Of a stretch of DNA of 7,623 nt, positions 261 to 5,666 are shown in pieces. This DNA comes from a bacterium (GTDB lineage Bacteria; Bacillota_I; Bacilli_A; RF39; UBA660). How positions within the stretch are numbered: the first letter of the stretch is position 1; each line of letters starts with the position of its first letter. A program made the translations under genes and the position numbers. The stretch lies in NCBI GenBank assembly GCA_004560915.1, contig SFTR01000049.1, forward strand, positions 1 through 7,623, written 5' to 3'. The notes below the pieces were generated by a model. The model was not told the origin of the DNA and did no database searches. It was given only the letters and a program-made list of their open reading frames with translations.

Positions 261-792
261 CTTTGCTCTCCATTACTACGTGTTTCCAATAGTCGTTAAT
301 TCCTTGTCTTTCAAAGCTATTTAACACATTCTTTTCCTTCTCGACCAAAACCACCTTTTTTATAAAATTCGTGTAATTATTGTTAATTGTTTCTGAAGTA
401 ACAGTTCTTAAATCTCCAAAGAACTCAGTTGGATCTATCTCTAACTTTTTTGATATTCTCCTGATGTAAGATAAATCTAAATCTCTATCAAAACAATCAT
501 CAGCTTCTTCCATTGATAGATATTTCTTTCCGCATCTAGTACAGTGATAGTAACCGGGTGCTGCATCTTCTTCCTTTTGCGCAAATGTTTTTAATGGATG
601 AATTAATAACGAAAGTGTTGGAACATCTTCATCTCCACTATCAACATAATTATCTAGTTGCTCAAGTACTTCATTGAAATCGTAATCTTTTAGCTTTTCA
701 CTCCAGTTTTCAAAAACATCTTCTGTTAATGAAAAGTATGGAAAGAAACTTTTAATCGCTCTTAAGAGTTGTTCAGTTTGTTGTTTTGTCAT
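229..792 (-). CDS. Phage replicative helicase loader/inhibitor, G39P-like
   Basis: The 187-residue product has an N-terminal region (about 1-68) with the pattern of the SPP1 G39P family: a helical start, 'FFPYF', then an acidic helical segment ending in 'VPTLSLLIHPL'. G39P-type proteins bind the phage DnaB-like helicase, hold it inactive and help load it at the origin. Residues 83-100 carry HC-x2-C and a further Cys 12 residues later, a possible incomplete zinc site. The C-terminal half is not recognised. I chose ATG 792 over an in-frame ATG at 837: GGAGAG lies 8 nt upstream of 792, and the longer form would overlap the previous gene by 65 bp. As chosen, it overlaps the DnaD-like gene by 20 bp, suggesting coupled translation. 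The family call rests on pattern recall. Confidence 0.65.
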   Translation of the reverse strand: MTKQQTEQLLRAIKSFFPYFSLTEDVFENWSEKLKDYDFNEVLEQLDNYVDSGDEDVPTLSLLIHPLKTFAQKEEDAAPGYYHCTRCGKKYLSMEEADDCFDRDLDLSYIRRISKKLEIDPTEFFGDLRTVTSETINNNYTNFIKKVVLVEKEKNVLNSFERQGINDYWKHVVMESKDESKYRPNTI

Positions 793-1591
793 TATCTTCA
801 CTCTCCATTTTCTTTCTAGCTCTTGTGAATATTGCATCTAGTTTTCTTTCACTTACCGATTTCTTACCTTTTTTCAAATCTTCCTCAATCTTTTCTAAAG
901 AATCTAGTCCACAGTCTTTCCAAGTCTTTAAAATACCTTTTATGTAACTCAATTTGTTGTTTCTTTGTTCGAATGCAACTTTGTAAGCCTTTAAGACTAT
1001 TGGTTCTGTATGAACTTCTACTAAGTTGTTCACCTCTTCGAACTCATAAGGTGTAAGACTTCTTCCATAGTTCTTTTCAACGAAATCTAAAATTGAATCT
1101 AAAGATGTTTCTTCCTCTTCCTCTTTCTCTTTCCTTACAATCCTATCTCTATCTTTATTACTATCTTCTTCTTTAGATATAGAATTATCTTTATTATTAA
1201 GAGTATTATTATTAACAACAACATTAACATTAACATCTTGATGTGATTTCTTTTCGTTGTTGTTTTGATTTTGTTTTGATTTTGTTTTGATTTCATTTTG
1301 ATTTTCATTTGTTTTTATTTTGATTTCATCTTGATTTTGTTTTGTTTCTATTTCATTATCAATTTTTTTAGACTTAGAACCATTCCTACTTTTACTACAA
1401 GATTTAAGTAATGGTCTTTTTAAATTAATGAAAATCTTTGTTTGAGTATCATTTAGTTTAGGATCTTTACCTTCGAACATATATTCAGCAATTGCTAATA
1501 ATAGTTCTGCTCTTTCTTTTTTAGGTAAAATCGTTATCAGTTCATAATATTCTTTATATAAACTAAAACTCTTTACTGTGTTGTCTTCCAT
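773..1591 (-). CDS. DnaD-domain phage replication initiation protein with DUF6291-like N-terminus
   Basis: The protein has 272 residues. Residues about 8-65 (SFSLYKEYYELITILPKKE..., LLLAIAEYMFEG) look like the DUF6291 N-terminal module common in phage replication proteins. Residues about 163-235 match the DnaD/DnaB_2 domain, ending in the characteristic YIKGILKTW segment (216-224). DnaD-like organisers bind origin DNA and recruit the helicase with its loader; the next gene downstream is the probable loader. The two domains are joined by an extreme low-complexity linker (about 68-160): first Asn/Gln/Lys-rich, then Asn/Val-rich, then an acidic KEKEEEEE tract. Its DNA contains an 11-bp tandem repeat. 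The start ATG has AGGTG 4 nt upstream, and the preceding membrane-protein gene ends 10 bp before it, so all are likely one operon. Confidence 0.85.
   Translation of the reverse strand: MEDNTVKSFSLYKEYYELITILPKKERAELLLAIAEYMFEGKDPKLNDTQTKIFINLKRPLLKSCSKSRNGSKSKKIDNEIETKQNQDEIKIKTNENQNEIKTKSKQNQNNNEKKSHQDVNVNVVVNNNTLNNKDNSISKEEDSNKDRDRIVRKEKEEEEETSLDSILDFVEKNYGRSLTPYEFEEVNNLVEVHTEPIVLKAYKVAFEQRNNKLSYIKGILKTWKDCGLDSLEKIEEDLKKGKKSVSERKLDAIFTRARKKMESEDNDKTTN
1260..1303. repeat. 11-bp tandem repeat inside the DnaD-protein linker
   Basis: Three exact copies of TTGTTTTGATT (1260-1270, 1271-1281, 1282-1292) are followed by a diverged copy TCATTTTGATT (1293-1303). Similar TTTTGATT and TTGATTTTG pieces continue to about 1345. 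The unit is not a multiple of three, so gain or loss of a single copy would shift the frame of the DnaD-like gene, while three copies add 11 residues. It encodes part of the Gln/Asn/Lys-rich linker. Confidence 0.85.
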
Positions 1592-1601
1592 ATTTCACCT
1601 A

Positions 1602-1853
1602 TTATTGAAGATGTTCTTCACAGAAGGTTCTACTATTTCCAAATTCGACACATTCTTCTACAGCATTTCTATATTGAACATTTAAAGCAATAATAATCAT
1701 CACTACCATTATTCCACCTAGTATATAGATGAACTTTTCAAATCTATTTTCCCTTTTTTCTTTTTTTTCTAAATATTCTCTCACGTATGATCTATCTTGA
1801 TTTTTTTTAAGCTCTTCTAGGCTTACTATAAATTCAGGTTCTTTTTCTTTCAT
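1602..1853 (-). CDS. Single-pass membrane protein of unknown function
   Basis: The product has 83 residues. A charged, probably cytoplasmic N-terminus (1-40, rich in Lys, Arg and Glu, with coiled-coil character) precedes one clear membrane helix at about 41-59 (FIYILGGIMVVMIIIALNV). A short tail follows with two cysteines (C68, C78) that could form a disulfide if outside. I chose the ATG at 1853 because AAGGA lies about 9 nt upstream. An in-frame TTG at 1871 overlaps the SD and is unlikely. It lies second in the early operon, after the excisionase-like gene and 10 bp before the replication gene. Small membrane proteins of this topology are frequent in phage early regions, but no function is established here. 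Confidence 0.75.
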   Translation of the reverse strand: MKEKEPEFIVSLEELKKNQDRSYVREYLEKKEKRENRFEKFIYILGGIMVVMIIIALNVQYRNAVEECVEFGNSRTFCEEHLQ

Positions 1854-1982: not shown

Positions 1983-2174
1983 TTAATCACTTCCTTTTGG
2001 TTCTTTGATTAAAACTTTCTTTTCAAAGTACCACTTAGGAATTTTTGCTTTAATAATAATTGTTCCTGGATATTCTCGTTTTAATTTAGTATTTAATTCT
2101 TCTATTAACTTGTAACTTGATGCTTTACCAAGTCCAGTTAATTTTATTATTTCTTTTGAGTCATAAAATTCCAT
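1983..2174 (-). CDS. Small helix-turn-helix DNA-binding protein, excisionase-like
   Basis: The product has 63 residues. Residues 4-32 (YDSKEIIKLTGLGKASSYKLIEELN) form a MerR/excisionase-type helix-turn-helix with the usual 'KE...TG...SSAYKLI'-like layout. A strand pair and a 'GTIIIKAKIPKWYFEKK' segment follow, a wing-like form common in phage and ICE proteins annotated as Xis or HTH regulators. It is first in the leftward early operon, a likely place for an excision or directionality factor, and it may regulate early transcription. The ATG at 2174 has AAAGGAG 8 nt upstream. Its leader holds the 18-bp repeat (2200-2217) that also occurs in the small RNA before int. I could not identify a convincing minus-strand promoter. 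The excisionase role is inferred. Confidence 0.7.
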   Translation of the reverse strand: MEFYDSKEIIKLTGLGKASSYKLIEELNTKLKREYPGTIIIKAKIPKWYFEKKVLIKEPKGSD

Positions 2175-2199
2175 ATTTTCAACTCCTTTCTTTTATTTC

Positions 2200-2217
2200 G
2201 CGTGGATATTGATATTT
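2200..2217 (+). repeat. 18-bp repeat, copy 1, in the leader of the excisionase-like gene
   Basis: GCGTGGATATTGATATTT is found here on the plus strand and, perfectly, on the minus strand at 4445-4462. Read towards the downstream gene, both copies have the same direction, one before the excisionase-like gene and one before int. Copy 1 ends 10 nt before the SD of the excisionase-like gene and also covers the -35 box (2209-2214) of the rightward gene. It may be an antisense-RNA target or a protein-binding site. Confidence 0.85.
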
Positions 2218-2695: not shown

Positions 2696-2947
2696 TTATC
2701 CTTCTTTTTCTTCAAAAATGTTGCTTTCAGTTACGTTTGGTTTTACAAAAAAACTAGATAATTCGCAATTTAACACTTGAGCTATATTACTTAGTTTTTC
2801 AACATTGAGTTTGCTAGGATTAACTTCATAATCACAATATGTTGTTCTTGTAATTCCAAGAATTTCAGCCATTTTTTCTTGTGTATATCCCATCTTTACA
2901 CGATATGATTTCAAATTATTTGAAACATAACTTAATTTATCTTTCAT
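2696..2947 (-). CDS. Xre-family HTH regulator, Cro-like side of the switch
   Basis: The 83-residue product is nearly all one Cro/C1-type helix-turn-helix domain (about 8-66): LKSYRVKMGYTQEKMAEILG, then the recognition helix 'TRTTYCDYEVNPSK' and 'LNVEKLSNIAQVLNCELSSFF'. There is no dimerisation or protease-sensitive domain, as expected of a Cro-like protein. The ATG at 2947 has AAGGAGG closely upstream (2952-2958). It is transcribed leftwards from a perfect consensus promoter whose spacer contains a repeated operator motif, and it is divergent from the larger regulator at 3080. The likely role is the lytic or early arm of the switch. A lysogenic repressor role cannot be excluded, because its promoter is the stronger of the two by consensus. 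Confidence 0.85.
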   Translation of the reverse strand: MKDKLSYVSNNLKSYRVKMGYTQEKMAEILGITRTTYCDYEVNPSKLNVEKLSNIAQVLNCELSSFFVKPNVTESNIFEEKEG

Positions 2948-2967: not shown

Positions 2968-2996
2968 ATTATAGTTGCTATTAGTTACATTGTCAA
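2968..2996 (-). promoter_or_regulatory. Consensus promoter for the leftward Xre gene
   Basis: On the minus strand TTGACA (2996-2991), an exact 17-bp spacer and TATAAT (2973-2968) match consensus at all 12 positions. The spacer holds one copy of the repeated TTGCTA-N2-AGTTACATT motif, so a regulator bound there would block polymerase. Confidence 0.9.
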
Positions 2997-3079: not shown

Positions 3080-3421
3080 ATGAATTATTTATCAACAAAT
3101 ATTAAGTTTTTAAGACAAGAAAGAAAATTAACACAAGAAGACATTGCAAAAATAGTAGATAAATCAAGAGTCTTAGTAAGTCAATGGGAATCTGATGACA
3201 GAGAAATTACAACCGAAGATATAATTAAATTATCAGATTACTTTAATGTTCCAATGGATGCACTTATTGGAAAAGATTTACGAATAGGATTTCCAAAAGA
3301 TGATTTAGAAATACTATTTGATAAACATAAAAGCATTTTAACTGACGGAGATAAAGAAACAATCAAATTCATTATCGAAAAAAGAAAACGAGAAATAGAC
3401 AAGGAACTTGATGGAGAATAA
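3080..3421 (+). CDS. Xre-family repressor, ImmR/CI-like
   Basis: The 113-residue product has an N-terminal helix-turn-helix (about 5-62): 'IKFLRQERKLTQEDIAKIV', recognition helix 'SRVLVSQWESDDREIT', then 'DIIKLSDYFNVPMDALIG'. A charged helical C-terminus (about 72-113) probably mediates dimerisation or peptidase recognition. The ATG at 3080 follows AAAGGAG by about 10 nt. The open frame runs back to 2975, but that extension would translate through the operators and promoter and is rejected. It heads an operon with a probable ImmA-type peptidase. In ICEBs1 and related phages ImmA cleaves the ImmR repressor to trigger induction, so this is the likely lysogenic repressor and the peptidase's substrate. 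It lacks a LexA-like S24 autoprotease domain, which fits that model. Confidence 0.85.
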   Translation: MNYLSTNIKFLRQERKLTQEDIAKIVDKSRVLVSQWESDDREITTEDIIKLSDYFNVPMDALIGKDLRIGFPKDDLEILFDKHKSILTDGDKETIKFIIEKRKREIDKELDGE

Positions 3422-3484: not shown

Positions 3485-3823
3485 ATGATTACAAAATTAT
3501 TAAAAGGAAATATAACTCAACAAGAGTTATTGAATTATTACAATGCTAACGTAACTTATGTTAGTTTAAGTAGAGGAATTGATGGATTTGTTTTCAATCA
3601 TCGAGGGATTTATAACATCATTGTTAATTCTAACCTATCCTACTATAAGAGAAAGAAAACAATACTACACGAACTTGCTCATATAGAACTTTCACATCTA
3701 GATCAAGATAAAACAATGTTAGAATTTAATAGAAATGGTTTTGAAGATGAAGCCGATAGATATATAAGGCATATTAAAGAATATTTAAATAATCTTATTC
3801 AGGAAAGTGAGGTGAATAATTAA
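3485..3823 (+). CDS. ImmA/IrrE-family metallopeptidase
   Basis: The 112-residue product carries the zinc-peptidase motif HELAH (H62-E63-x2-H66) within 'KKTILHELAHIELSH', and a downstream 'FEDEADRY' (E89 of EAD) that supplies the third ligand in this family. Upstream strands 'GFVFNHRGIYNIIVNSN' match the usual ImmA lead-in. ImmA proteins cleave the paired HTH repressor to induce the element, often after DNA damage or cell-cell signalling. It lies 63 bp after the repressor. The ATG is preceded by AGAGG 8 nt upstream. That SD lies in the loop of a possible hairpin, TACTTAAT (3447-3454) with ATTAAGTA (3478-3485), whose stem reaches the A of the start codon and might limit its translation. The stop overlaps the next start (TAATG). 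Confidence 0.88.
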   Translation: MITKLLKGNITQQELLNYYNANVTYVSLSRGIDGFVFNHRGIYNIIVNSNLSYYKRKKTILHELAHIELSHLDQDKTMLEFNRNGFEDEADRYIRHIKEYLNNLIQESEVNN

Positions 3824-4398
3824 TGAAATTTTGTAGTTATTGTGGTGCTAAACTTAAAGAAGGTCAAGATGTTTGTTTAAAATGTGGTAAAAACTTAAAT
3901 AATAATTCAGATAACGAGAAGAAAACAGCAAAAAAAATAGCAAGTATTGTCAGTCTTATATTATTTATCATAGGATTTTCATGTTTAGTTTATATTATTA
4001 TAAATATAGTTCAATACATAAATAAGGAAAATGCAGACGAGAATATTGATTATAGTGAGTATATAAAATTAGACCCTCAAAAATTACATAGCGATTATAT
4101 TACAAACGAAATAGCAGCAGAAGATGAATATGAAGGAAAATATTATTACTTTACTGGAAAAGTATATAAAGTTGAAGAATCTTGGGGAGATACTTATTTA
4201 AAAATTCAATATAAAGATCAAAGTAGTAAACCTGATAAACTAATTGAATTAGATGCATACTTTAATGATAGAGAAATTTTAAAATCAATAAAAAAAGATG
4301 ATACAGTTACTGTTTATTGTAAATTTAATGGTAGAGGTATCGAAGATTTTATGGGAGTAATTACAACATACTCATTTAAAAAATGTAAATTCAAATAA
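3823..4398 (+). CDS. Zinc-ribbon membrane protein with OB-fold domain, possible superinfection-exclusion factor
   Basis: The 191-residue product has three parts. An N-terminal zinc ribbon has C4-x2-C7 and C18-x2-C21. One long membrane helix spans about 40-66. A C-terminal domain (about 84-190), 'YYYFTGKVYKVEESWGDTYLKIQY...DDTVTVYCKFNGRG', resembles the tRNA_anti-like OB fold found in many Bacillota membrane or lipoproteins. The ribbon should be cytoplasmic and the OB domain outside. The ATG overlaps the peptidase stop by 1 nt, with GAGGTG 8 nt upstream, so it belongs to the lysogeny operon and should be made in the lysogen. Genes at this place between repressor and int often alter the host or exclude other phages (for example ltp of phage TP-J34). 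Exclusion is inferred from position and topology, not sequence identity. Confidence 0.8.
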   Translation: MKFCSYCGAKLKEGQDVCLKCGKNLNNNSDNEKKTAKKIASIVSLILFIIGFSCLVYIIINIVQYINKENADENIDYSEYIKLDPQKLHSDYITNEIAAEDEYEGKYYYFTGKVYKVEESWGDTYLKIQYKDQSSKPDKLIELDAYFNDREILKSIKKDDTVTVYCKFNGRGIEDFMGVITTYSFKKCKFK

Positions 4399-4427
4399 AA
4401 AATAGCACCTGCGCCAACAGGTACTAT
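4397..4427 (-). terminator. Minus-strand terminator of the small RNA before int
   Basis: Read on the minus strand, ATAGTACCTG (4427-4418), loop TTGGCG, then CAGGTGCTAT (4411-4402) form a 10-position stem with one mismatch, followed by a T run (4402-4397) and more T-rich sequence. On the plus strand no T run follows, so it does not stop the lysogeny operon. Confidence 0.75.
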
Positions 4428-4444
4428 CAATATAGAAAAACTTT

Positions 4445-4462
4445 AAATATCAATATCCACGC
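4445..4462 (-). repeat. 18-bp repeat, copy 2, inside the small-RNA loop upstream of int
   Basis: The minus strand reads GCGTGGATATTGATATTT, identical to 2200-2217 on the plus strand. Flanking bases do not match, so this is a discrete 18-bp element and not part of a longer duplication. Confidence 0.85.
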
Positions 4463-4499
4463 TAATAGAACTGAGTTTTTAAATGTTTTTCTATACACG

Positions 4500-4528
4500 A
4501 TTATACTAAATTAGTAGATTAAAATCAA
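4500..4528 (-). promoter_or_regulatory. Minus-strand promoter of the small RNA, facing away from int
   Basis: On the minus strand TTGATT (4528-4523), a 17-bp spacer and TATAAT (4505-4500). The -35 is directly before the SD of int (AAAGGAG at 4530-4536), so transcription here could interfere with int expression. The same TTGATT-17-TATAAT form is used by the antisense unit at 1908-1936. Confidence 0.7.
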
Positions 4529-4544: not shown

Positions 4545-5666
4545 ATGAAGAAAATATATGAAAAAACTAGATATCCAAATATTTATAAACACATGAAAAA
4601 TGGAAACTATTTTATAAGACATAATGGAACAGCTATATCAACTATTAATGGTAAAAAAATCTATGATATAAAAGTAGCTAAAGATTATAAAGCGAAATTA
4701 GAACTAAATATTAAAAAGATAGAACAATCAAGTAATTCATATCTATTTAAAGATTTATGGAATGAATATATATGCTATTGTGAAAATATTGCTAAATTAT
4801 CTTACTCTACTCTAAAGAAAAAACATTTGTTTTATAAATGCTACTTACATGAATTAGATTCTAAAAGAATAGATAAAATAACTAAAGAGCATATTGTATC
4901 ATTTATTAATTCTCTATCAACTAGTGATAAGCAAAAAAATGAAGTATTAAAAATATTTAAAGCATTTATAAATTGGTGTTTTGAAGAAAAAGAAATTAAT
5001 ATTCGAAAACCAACATTAGGAATCAAATATATAAAAATGTCAAAACAAGAAATGAAATATTGGTCAATTGAAAGCTTTAAAAAATTTATGTACTTTATGA
5101 ATAAGCAAAAAAATGGAACCGGATATAGAATTAAAATTTTAGTACTATTAGAATTACATATGGGTGATAGAATTGGTGAAACAAGAGCATTAACATGGAG
5201 TTCTATAAATGAAGAACACTCTACAATTAAAATATCTCACTCAATTAATTATGATAGTAAATCCAACGATTTCTTATCAAATACAAAAAACTATGGTTCT
5301 GATAGAATTGTAGATGTTAGTGAGTCACTAATAAAAGAATTGTTAAAATATAAAGAATACTTAAAGAAACAACAAATAAACATAAATGATTTAATATTTT
5401 ATAACTATAATACAAATAGACCATATTCAGATACAAGTTTGAGAAATTTATTTTATAATTATATAAAAAAAGCTGGAGTGCCTAAAATTAGATTATATGA
5501 CTTAAGGCACACATATGTTGCACTAATGATGAGCGAAGGCTGGGAATTATATCATATTTCTAAAAGGATTGGTCACACTAATTATTCAACTACTGTTAAC
5601 AAGTATGGACACTTAGAAAATAATGTAAGAAAGGAGATAGCAAAAACCACTGATAAATATATTTAA
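4545..5666 (+). CDS. int: Tyrosine recombinase, prophage integrase
   Basis: The 373-residue product has the usual phage-integrase length. Residues about 5-55 form an AP2-like arm-binding domain ('NIYKHMKNGNYFIRHN...INGKKIYDIKVAKDYKAKLE'). Residues about 66-160 form the SAM-like core-binding domain. The catalytic domain (about 170-365) shows R209 in GDRIGE, K248, Y318-D-L-R321 with H322, G343-H344 and the nucleophile Y354. The HxxR histidine is Tyr here; 'YDLRHT' variants are common in this family, so activity is expected. The ATG has AAAGGAG 8 nt upstream. A plus-strand promoter is only weakly visible (TATACT at 4502-4507) and is overlapped by the opposing small-RNA promoter. The gene ends 67 bp before the attachment core, as usual for integrases acting at a tRNA 3' end. 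Confidence 0.93.
   Translation: MKKIYEKTRYPNIYKHMKNGNYFIRHNGTAISTINGKKIYDIKVAKDYKAKLELNIKKIEQSSNSYLFKDLWNEYICYCENIAKLSYSTLKKKHLFYKCYLHELDSKRIDKITKEHIVSFINSLSTSDKQKNEVLKIFKAFINWCFEEKEINIRKPTLGIKYIKMSKQEMKYWSIESFKKFMYFMNKQKNGTGYRIKILVLLELHMGDRIGETRALTWSSINEEHSTIKISHSINYDSKSNDFLSNTKNYGSDRIVDVSESLIKELLKYKEYLKKQQININDLIFYNYNTNRPYSDTSLRNLFYNYIKKAGVPKIRLYDLRHTYVALMMSEGWELYHISKRIGHTNYSTTVNKYGHLENNVRKEIAKTTDKYI

Follow-up and report, generated by a model that had tools for sequence, protein, structure and literature searches.

The question raised by this locus is whether a small RNA (sRNA) encoded in the gap before an integrase gene (int) acts on a distant gene of the early operon to which it is complementary. 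The window, by which we mean the whole stretch of 7,623 nucleotides analysed here, covers the regulatory end of a prophage rich in A and T (Table 1). At the DNA level, its central 2,701 bases matched none of the INPHARED phages. At the protein level, the integrase matched 978 INPHARED records, all below 60% identity (24-31% among the 20 matches listed), and the HTH protein encoded in the early operon had one weak match.

Table 1. Features of the window, with the evidence on which each rests
Feature	Position	Strand	Basis
DnaD-like helicase loader gene, early operon	773..1591	-	Profile matches
Small protein gene with hydrophobic stretch, next in early operon	1602..1853	-	Start and membrane type by eye
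Target gene, 63-aa HTH protein, phrog_989, AlpA/excisionase-like	1983..2174	-	Profile matches; AlphaFold model
Shine-Dalgarno (SD) AAGGAG of target gene	2183..2188	-	Sequence; partly paired in predicted extended duplex
Target site in HTH gene leader, exact 18-nt complement	2200..2217	-	Best duplex site of the locus
cro-like HTH gene, first after early promoter	2696..2947	-	HTH_3; "cro-like" from position
Early promoter TTGACA-17-TATAAT	2968..2996	-	Consensus match 12/12
cI-like repressor gene	3080..3421	+	HTH_3; "cI-like" from position
ImmA/IrrE-type metalloprotease gene	3485..3823	+	Profile matches
Sie-like protein gene, convergent with sRNA	3823..4398	+	phrog_8545, E 4.6e-07
sRNA gene (putative antisense RNA, ~100 nt)	4397..4495	-	Fold; 18-nt complement; syntenic counterparts in relatives
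sRNA intrinsic terminator	4401..4428	-	Terminator scan
sRNA hairpin 1	4431..4495	-	Outer arms 4495-4485 and 4441-4431, predicted fold
Antisense stretch GCGTGGATATTGATATTT	4445..4462	-	Within hairpin 1; exact 18-nt complement at 2217-2200
sRNA promoter TTGATT-17-TATAAT	4500..4528	-	Consensus match 10/12
Tyrosine integrase gene (int), divergent from sRNA	4545..5666	+	phrog_1

The predicted RNA unit beside int and its complement in the early operon

A sequence-only reading of the window had proposed a promoter, a stem of 11 pairs (about 17 with an inner extension) and a terminator on the minus strand before int, and all three were found. Hairpin 1 is predicted to consist of 11 outer pairs and 6 inner pairs with a 10-pair upper hairpin on top, and the RNA 4495-4397 folds at -34.3 kcal/mol (z -7.1), a value equalled by none of 200 shuffles. 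The promoter by itself proves little, because a promoter scan of the whole window yields 46 sites, no excess over the shuffle mean of 54. Among the relatives described below, a -10-like hexamer is present in all 18 loci checked and the -35 hexamer matches the consensus at 3 to 5 of 6 positions, the best-scoring hexamers having been picked in each case. An automatic finder located a terminator 3' of the hairpin in 28 of 31 loci (the exceptions being L134, L170, and L176). With both promoter and terminator present, the sRNA is an independent transcription unit at the sequence level. The sequence of the outer pairs of hairpin 1 varies between loci, in a comparison that lists paired positions only.

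The complementary 18-mer had been assigned to the loop of this hairpin. It does lie within hairpin 1, but in no open loop: in the predicted fold it begins in the final 2 nt of a 4-nt apical loop, follows the 3' strand of the upper hairpin down, and extends into the inner stem.

Three further features of the unit were seen in passing. A 13-bp dyad, TACTAAATTAGTA, at window positions 4504-4516 extends over the upstream end of the sRNA -10 and is a possible regulator site. In an alignment of 22 sRNAs, an apical motif of the terminator hairpin like TGTTNCAGCA recurs in loci with unlike loops. In six loci (L115, L131, L132, L137, L166, and L175), hairpin 1 is separated from the terminator by an additional short hairpin, in most cases of the GGAGTT...CTCC type.

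The exact 18-nt complement claimed for the early operon was also found, in the leader of the HTH gene, where it ends 11 nt 5' of the SD. In a duplex scan of the window this site tops 999 windows (-35.7 vs -25.1 kcal/mol for the runner-up), and, simple-sequence DNA at 1260-1293 aside, the window has no other repeat as long as this match. Since the longest inverted match between sites more than 200 nt apart reaches 18 nt in 3 of 300 dinucleotide shuffles of the window, the match taken alone is modest and suggestive, and the weight of the argument rests on the relatives. The 18-mer itself has four matches in viral contigs, each of them single copy and in a different context.

The sequence-only reading named as its weak point that no clear promoter places the target inside an mRNA. 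This is partly answered by the consensus early promoter, which would read through the cro-like gene. Because this promoter matches the consensus fully and a minus-strand scan gave no terminator-like site between it and the target, the early mRNA, a predicted transcript, should contain the target site. In several relatives the target lies 3' of the end of the cro-like gene (by eye). Within the early operon, which is on the minus strand, a 92-aa ORF runs on the plus strand (2261-2539) in the space separating the cro-like gene from the HTH gene. Its SD region has its complement immediately 5' of the target in the early leader, where it could form a hairpin. In the leaders of L006, L112, L131, L132, L136, L137, and L138, a small palindrome centred on an AAAA-like sequence was seen by eye 5' of the target.

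All 19 aligned HTH proteins match phrog_989, a function-unknown family, and two of the 19 match Phage_AlpA weakly. Two relatives have been named AlpA by JGI, and the profile of the HTH protein matches 274 protein clusters (E <= 0.001). The AlphaFold model is small and HTH-like (mean pLDDT 82); a fold search with the target protein returned, at E <= 0.001, no PDB structure and two viral models, uncharacterised or HTH. On these matches, calling the target gene excisionase-like is a reasonable guess.

Concerted difference of loop and target in related prophages

The integrase and the HTH protein served as queries for relatives in viral contigs, genome contigs, and prokaryote genomes. Eleven of 16 titled records with relatives are "uncultured Bacilli bacterium" MAGs, and the first eight of the searched genomes measure only 1.2-1.8 Mb; judged by isolate names, the hosts of the related prophages are probably Bacilli of the gut. 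Within one order, the HTH protein was found in 9 of 385 genomes (E <= 1e-8) and the integrase in 14 of 375 (E <= 1e-70). The hairpin is present, divergent, before int in all examined loci carrying both genes, L129 excepted. In L164 it is located where a contig ends, and the int-bearing contig of that genome ends in the same hairpin.

Second copies of one contig (e.g. L052, L127, L128, and L133) were dropped before counting, and the counts exclude loci with a partial int (L117, L121-L126) and more distant HTH matches (L153-L162), several of which adjoin another integrase. Seven loci that have int but lack either a proper hairpin or, on the contig, the HTH gene were first set aside (L129, L135, L171, L239, L240, L242, and L243; L239 is the contig of L113). 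Four loci have the HTH gene and no int of related type on the contig: L130 and L169 were left out of the duplex-energy scan, and L168 and L220 gave no convincing pair by our detector. When 22 of the 31 sRNAs were aligned with MAFFT, the loops looked too poorly aligned, and therefore no covariance model was built.

In each of 28 loci with a proper hairpin, the hairpin core was scanned along both strands in windows of 45 nt (570-2020 per locus). The best pairing site of the whole locus was an early-gene start in 26 of the 28, 24 by an automatic rule and two by eye, at the start codon in L177 and at codons 2-13 in L174. The start that is hit belongs to the HTH gene in 19 of these loci and to a small neighbour in seven (L005, L111, L118, L119, L120, L164, and L174). 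L116 and L170 gave no convincing target in this whole-locus scan; an 8-nt match with G-U extensions before a second early gene of L116 was counted as a miss. When the seven loci set aside were scanned later, one, L171, was positive with the site of L172, which brings the overall count to 27 of 35. No site was found in L129, L240, L242, and L243 despite 4.5-9.2 kb before int on the contig; in the last three the HTH gene was also undetectable, and the L243 hairpin was wrongly parsed in the scan. L135 and L239 had no site within 1.6 and 0.5 kb, respectively, before int. In L242 and L243 the integrase ORF is split across several frames and the sRNA hairpin is still present.

By exact matching, the HTH leader contains a complement of 9-18 nt to the hairpin in 12 of the first 18 loci. 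A whole-locus search of the six remaining found, in four, a long match ahead of an early gene next to it (L005, 19 nt; L118, 16; L119, 20; L120, 16). L111 has a second site of 14 nt. The pairing is short in L134 and L164 (9 nt exact) and in L163 (8 nt plus G-U), and by exact match alone longer AT-rich matches occur elsewhere in L006, L114, and L134.

As a control we took, from both strands of 103 other viral loci, hairpins with the stem pattern seen in the window (206 tests). By the same automatic rule, the best site was in a start region in 9 of 206 control tests vs 24 of 28 family loci, with a mean z of -4.4 vs -6.7 and a mean gap to the next site of -2.3 vs -7.2 kcal/mol. Three of the nine control matches (L010, L012, and L107) are likely to be further family members: each has a hairpin with promoter-like sequence and terminator before a distant or different integrase. 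The target gene of L010 belongs to the same HTH family as that of the window (E 4.7e-16), and in L012 and L107 the target is another small gene, HTH-like by eye only. Among the six other control matches, L017, which we do not deem a member, has a gap as large as the family's. For four regions from the INPHARED collection (MT835780, Ruminococcus phage phiRg519T2, Butyrivibrio phage Idris, and Faecalibacterium phage Aster), we judged no loop-leader pair given by the detector to be real, and the duplex-energy scan was also without result in phiRg519T2 and Aster. These two (L245 and L247) do have a promoter-hairpin-terminator-like unit before int, for which no matching leader was found.

The specificity of the pairs was assessed by permuting 27 hairpins against 27 targets, L178 being left out because it has the same loop as L172. 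The cognate energies sum to -706, the best of 100,000 permutations to -411, and 24 of 27 rows have the cognate target in first place; targets were those chosen by the duplex scan, except that the HTH leader was used for L116 and L170. With the HTH leader only, and thus no choice of site, the cognate ranks first in 19 of 26 and none of 100,000 permutations is as good. Non-cognate pairs are sometimes fair, with an off-diagonal minimum of -27.9, and the cognate of L006 ranks second.

The pairs were also compared between close relatives. In L119 and L120, a small membrane-type gene (by eye) is identical from the SD onward over the aligned stretch and the sRNAs are near-identical up to the specificity stretch; this stretch and the leader both differ, matched within each element. 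In L131 and L132, the SD and gene start are alike, most of the sRNA gene is common to both with its 5' part near-identical, and there are matched differences in loop and target. In L172 and L178, loop and target are retained and the sRNA flanks differ (160 of 194 columns identical overall). As these two have one loop in common, the scan provides 25 distinct pairs, and with L010, L012, and L107 there are 28 distinct natural loop-target pairs. Across the pairs, the sequences differ almost everywhere and complementarity is retained. Independent divergence of loop and leader in relatives had been put forward as an observation that would speak against the pairing; most relatives have the opposite, joint differences, and 8 of 35 loci are without a site. 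The sequences show the anatomy of the unit, its complementarity and, over many elements, the concerted difference of stretch and target; the finding is real as far as sequence can tell, and it is unusually well supported for a computation.

Predicted pairing at the translation start and what it may do

The predicted duplexes were placed relative to the gene start in 29 pairs (the 26 loci and L010, L012, and L107). All 29 form at least 5 base pairs within -25 to +15 of the start codon, and 19 pair at least 2 nt of the SD. Fewer than 2 SD nt are paired in L006, L010, L112, L114, L131, L132, L136, L163, L174, and L177; the row for L174 rests on a cut leader, and in L177 the duplex covers the start codon. 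The extended duplex of the window reaches -36.9 kcal/mol with 4 SD nt paired. Figures for SD accessibility (free to bound) were set aside, because SD bases paired by the sRNA had been scored as unpaired. Given that SD and start region are engaged in the duplexes, translational repression is the likeliest effect.

This engagement, together with the joint change of loop and leader, supports the earlier proposal that the sRNA would silence a gene of the early or excision operon. Very probably, it is a trans-encoded antisense RNA that pairs with an early-gene start, blocks translation, and silences early and excision expression in the prophage. Its own promoter and terminator would drive the sRNA from the gap before int, on the opposite strand. 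The specificity stretch of its hairpin would then pair with the start region of the HTH gene, or in some relatives of the small neighbour, and hinder ribosome entry on the early mRNA, such that leaky early and excision expression would be silenced. We infer that the RNA is made, and made in lysogens, that pairing represses, and that the purpose would be lysogeny maintenance and perhaps immunity towards phages sharing the specificity.

The identity of the genes hit bears on a different reading, a type I toxin-antitoxin-like module in which the RNA would mainly silence a small membrane-type early protein and the HTH gene would be silenced along with it. The best site does lie before a small membrane-looking gene (by eye) in L005, L111, L118, L119, and L120, and the early operon of the window also holds such a gene. 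However, among the 26 loci with a site, 19 have it at the start of the HTH gene itself, and in the window the membrane-type gene comes after the HTH gene, and so we regard this module as unlikely. Pairing upstream of the SD in some loci (e.g. L112, L114, and L136) would also suit an RNA that activates translation by opening an inhibitory leader structure, but with the SD within the duplex in 19 of 29 pairs, and the start codon in L177, activation is very improbable. Nor does it seem credible, beyond a slight chance, that the two copies are DNA operators of one coevolving regulator (Int, Xis, or repressor) instead of RNA pairing sites. Such operators would in principle also give co-varying short sequences near int and the HTH gene; yet one copy belongs to a hairpin flanked by promoter and terminator and the other lies at a translation start, and the best site is on the target's sense strand in the 26 counted loci although both strands were searched (at most, the two misses could differ). 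Moreover, the HTH proteins of L131 and L132 are the same in the alignment, yet both sites differ in sequence. A chance match beside an ordinary int-proximal terminator has a negligible probability, since the shuffles of the window that hold an inverted match as long are opposed, at the family level, by the concerted difference across relatives and by the permutation and control results.

Known antisense RNAs and possible immunity types

Silencing of an early gene start by an antisense RNA would not be without precedent. In the accessible text of one review, antisense control of lysogeny is known from few phages, mostly enterobacterial, with c4, sar, and OOP as the cases (PMC12197685). As described there, c4 of P1 and P7 is an antisense RNA whose loops pair around the RBS of an early gene and which underlies heteroimmunity, and sar of P22, classed as trans in a table, is a small RNA that blocks translation initiation of ant, a gene that would disturb lysogeny; c4 and sar both act on the antirepressor (PMC12197685). 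Like c4, the int-adjacent sRNA would pair at the translation start of an early phage gene, and like sar it is a small phage RNA predicted to be directed at translation initiation. Unlike c4, its target is the phrog_989 HTH gene or a small neighbour, not ant. Furthermore, c4 is made from the transcript that it controls and sar is encoded within the ant region, whereas the int-adjacent sRNA has, by sequence, a promoter and terminator of its own and forms a separate unit; some 2.2 kb lie between it and its target, and the two do not overlap.

STnc6030 of prophage BTP1 is, in the accessible text of its report, a 786-nt RNA antisense to late genes that excludes the same phage but not P22 (PMC7067206). 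The sRNA predicted here would likewise be a prophage antisense RNA, and unlike STnc6030, for which none is described in that text, it has a family in which loop and target co-vary. The Rfam family of c4, RF01695, is listed for Proteobacteria and phages in the part of the source available to us (PMC2864571). An Rfam search of the window at E <= 1 gave no c4 match and none at the sRNA or target site, with two other sub-threshold matches elsewhere; at the gathering threshold, 11 relatives gave 2 tRNA matches only and no sRNA family. The int-proximal sRNA would thus work like c4 and yet is outside the c4 family by the features tested.

Antisense RNAs of plasmid copy-number control and incompatibility have loops that vary with the target and define specificity groups. 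They are encoded on the strand opposite their target, and their co-variation is therefore automatic. The hairpin stretch described here also varies with its target, but unlike in the plasmid RNAs, the loop and the target are far apart and each has to change on its own. In the literature searched, of which subscription papers were mostly beyond reach, we recognised no int-proximal trans-encoded prophage RNA with a co-varying loop and early leader.

One loop is common to L240 and L112, and another to L171, L172, and L178. Loops common to several elements are what is expected if specificity types exist. It is conceivable, though we put it forward tentatively, that the loops are RNA immunity (incompatibility) types, where a resident sRNA would silence the early operon of an incoming element of the same type and escape would come about by joint change of loop and leader. 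If true, this would be a superinfection immunity independent of the repressor and easily diversified, and the natural loop-target pairs allow testing whether antisense RNAs set phage immunity groups.

In summary, little-studied Bacilli prophages contain a family in which a specificity element and its distant target differ in concert. A hairpin with a terminator, divergent from int and with a loop matching the early leader, provides a search rule for such RNAs. The finding points to a family of RNA switches by which these prophages may keep the virus quiet.
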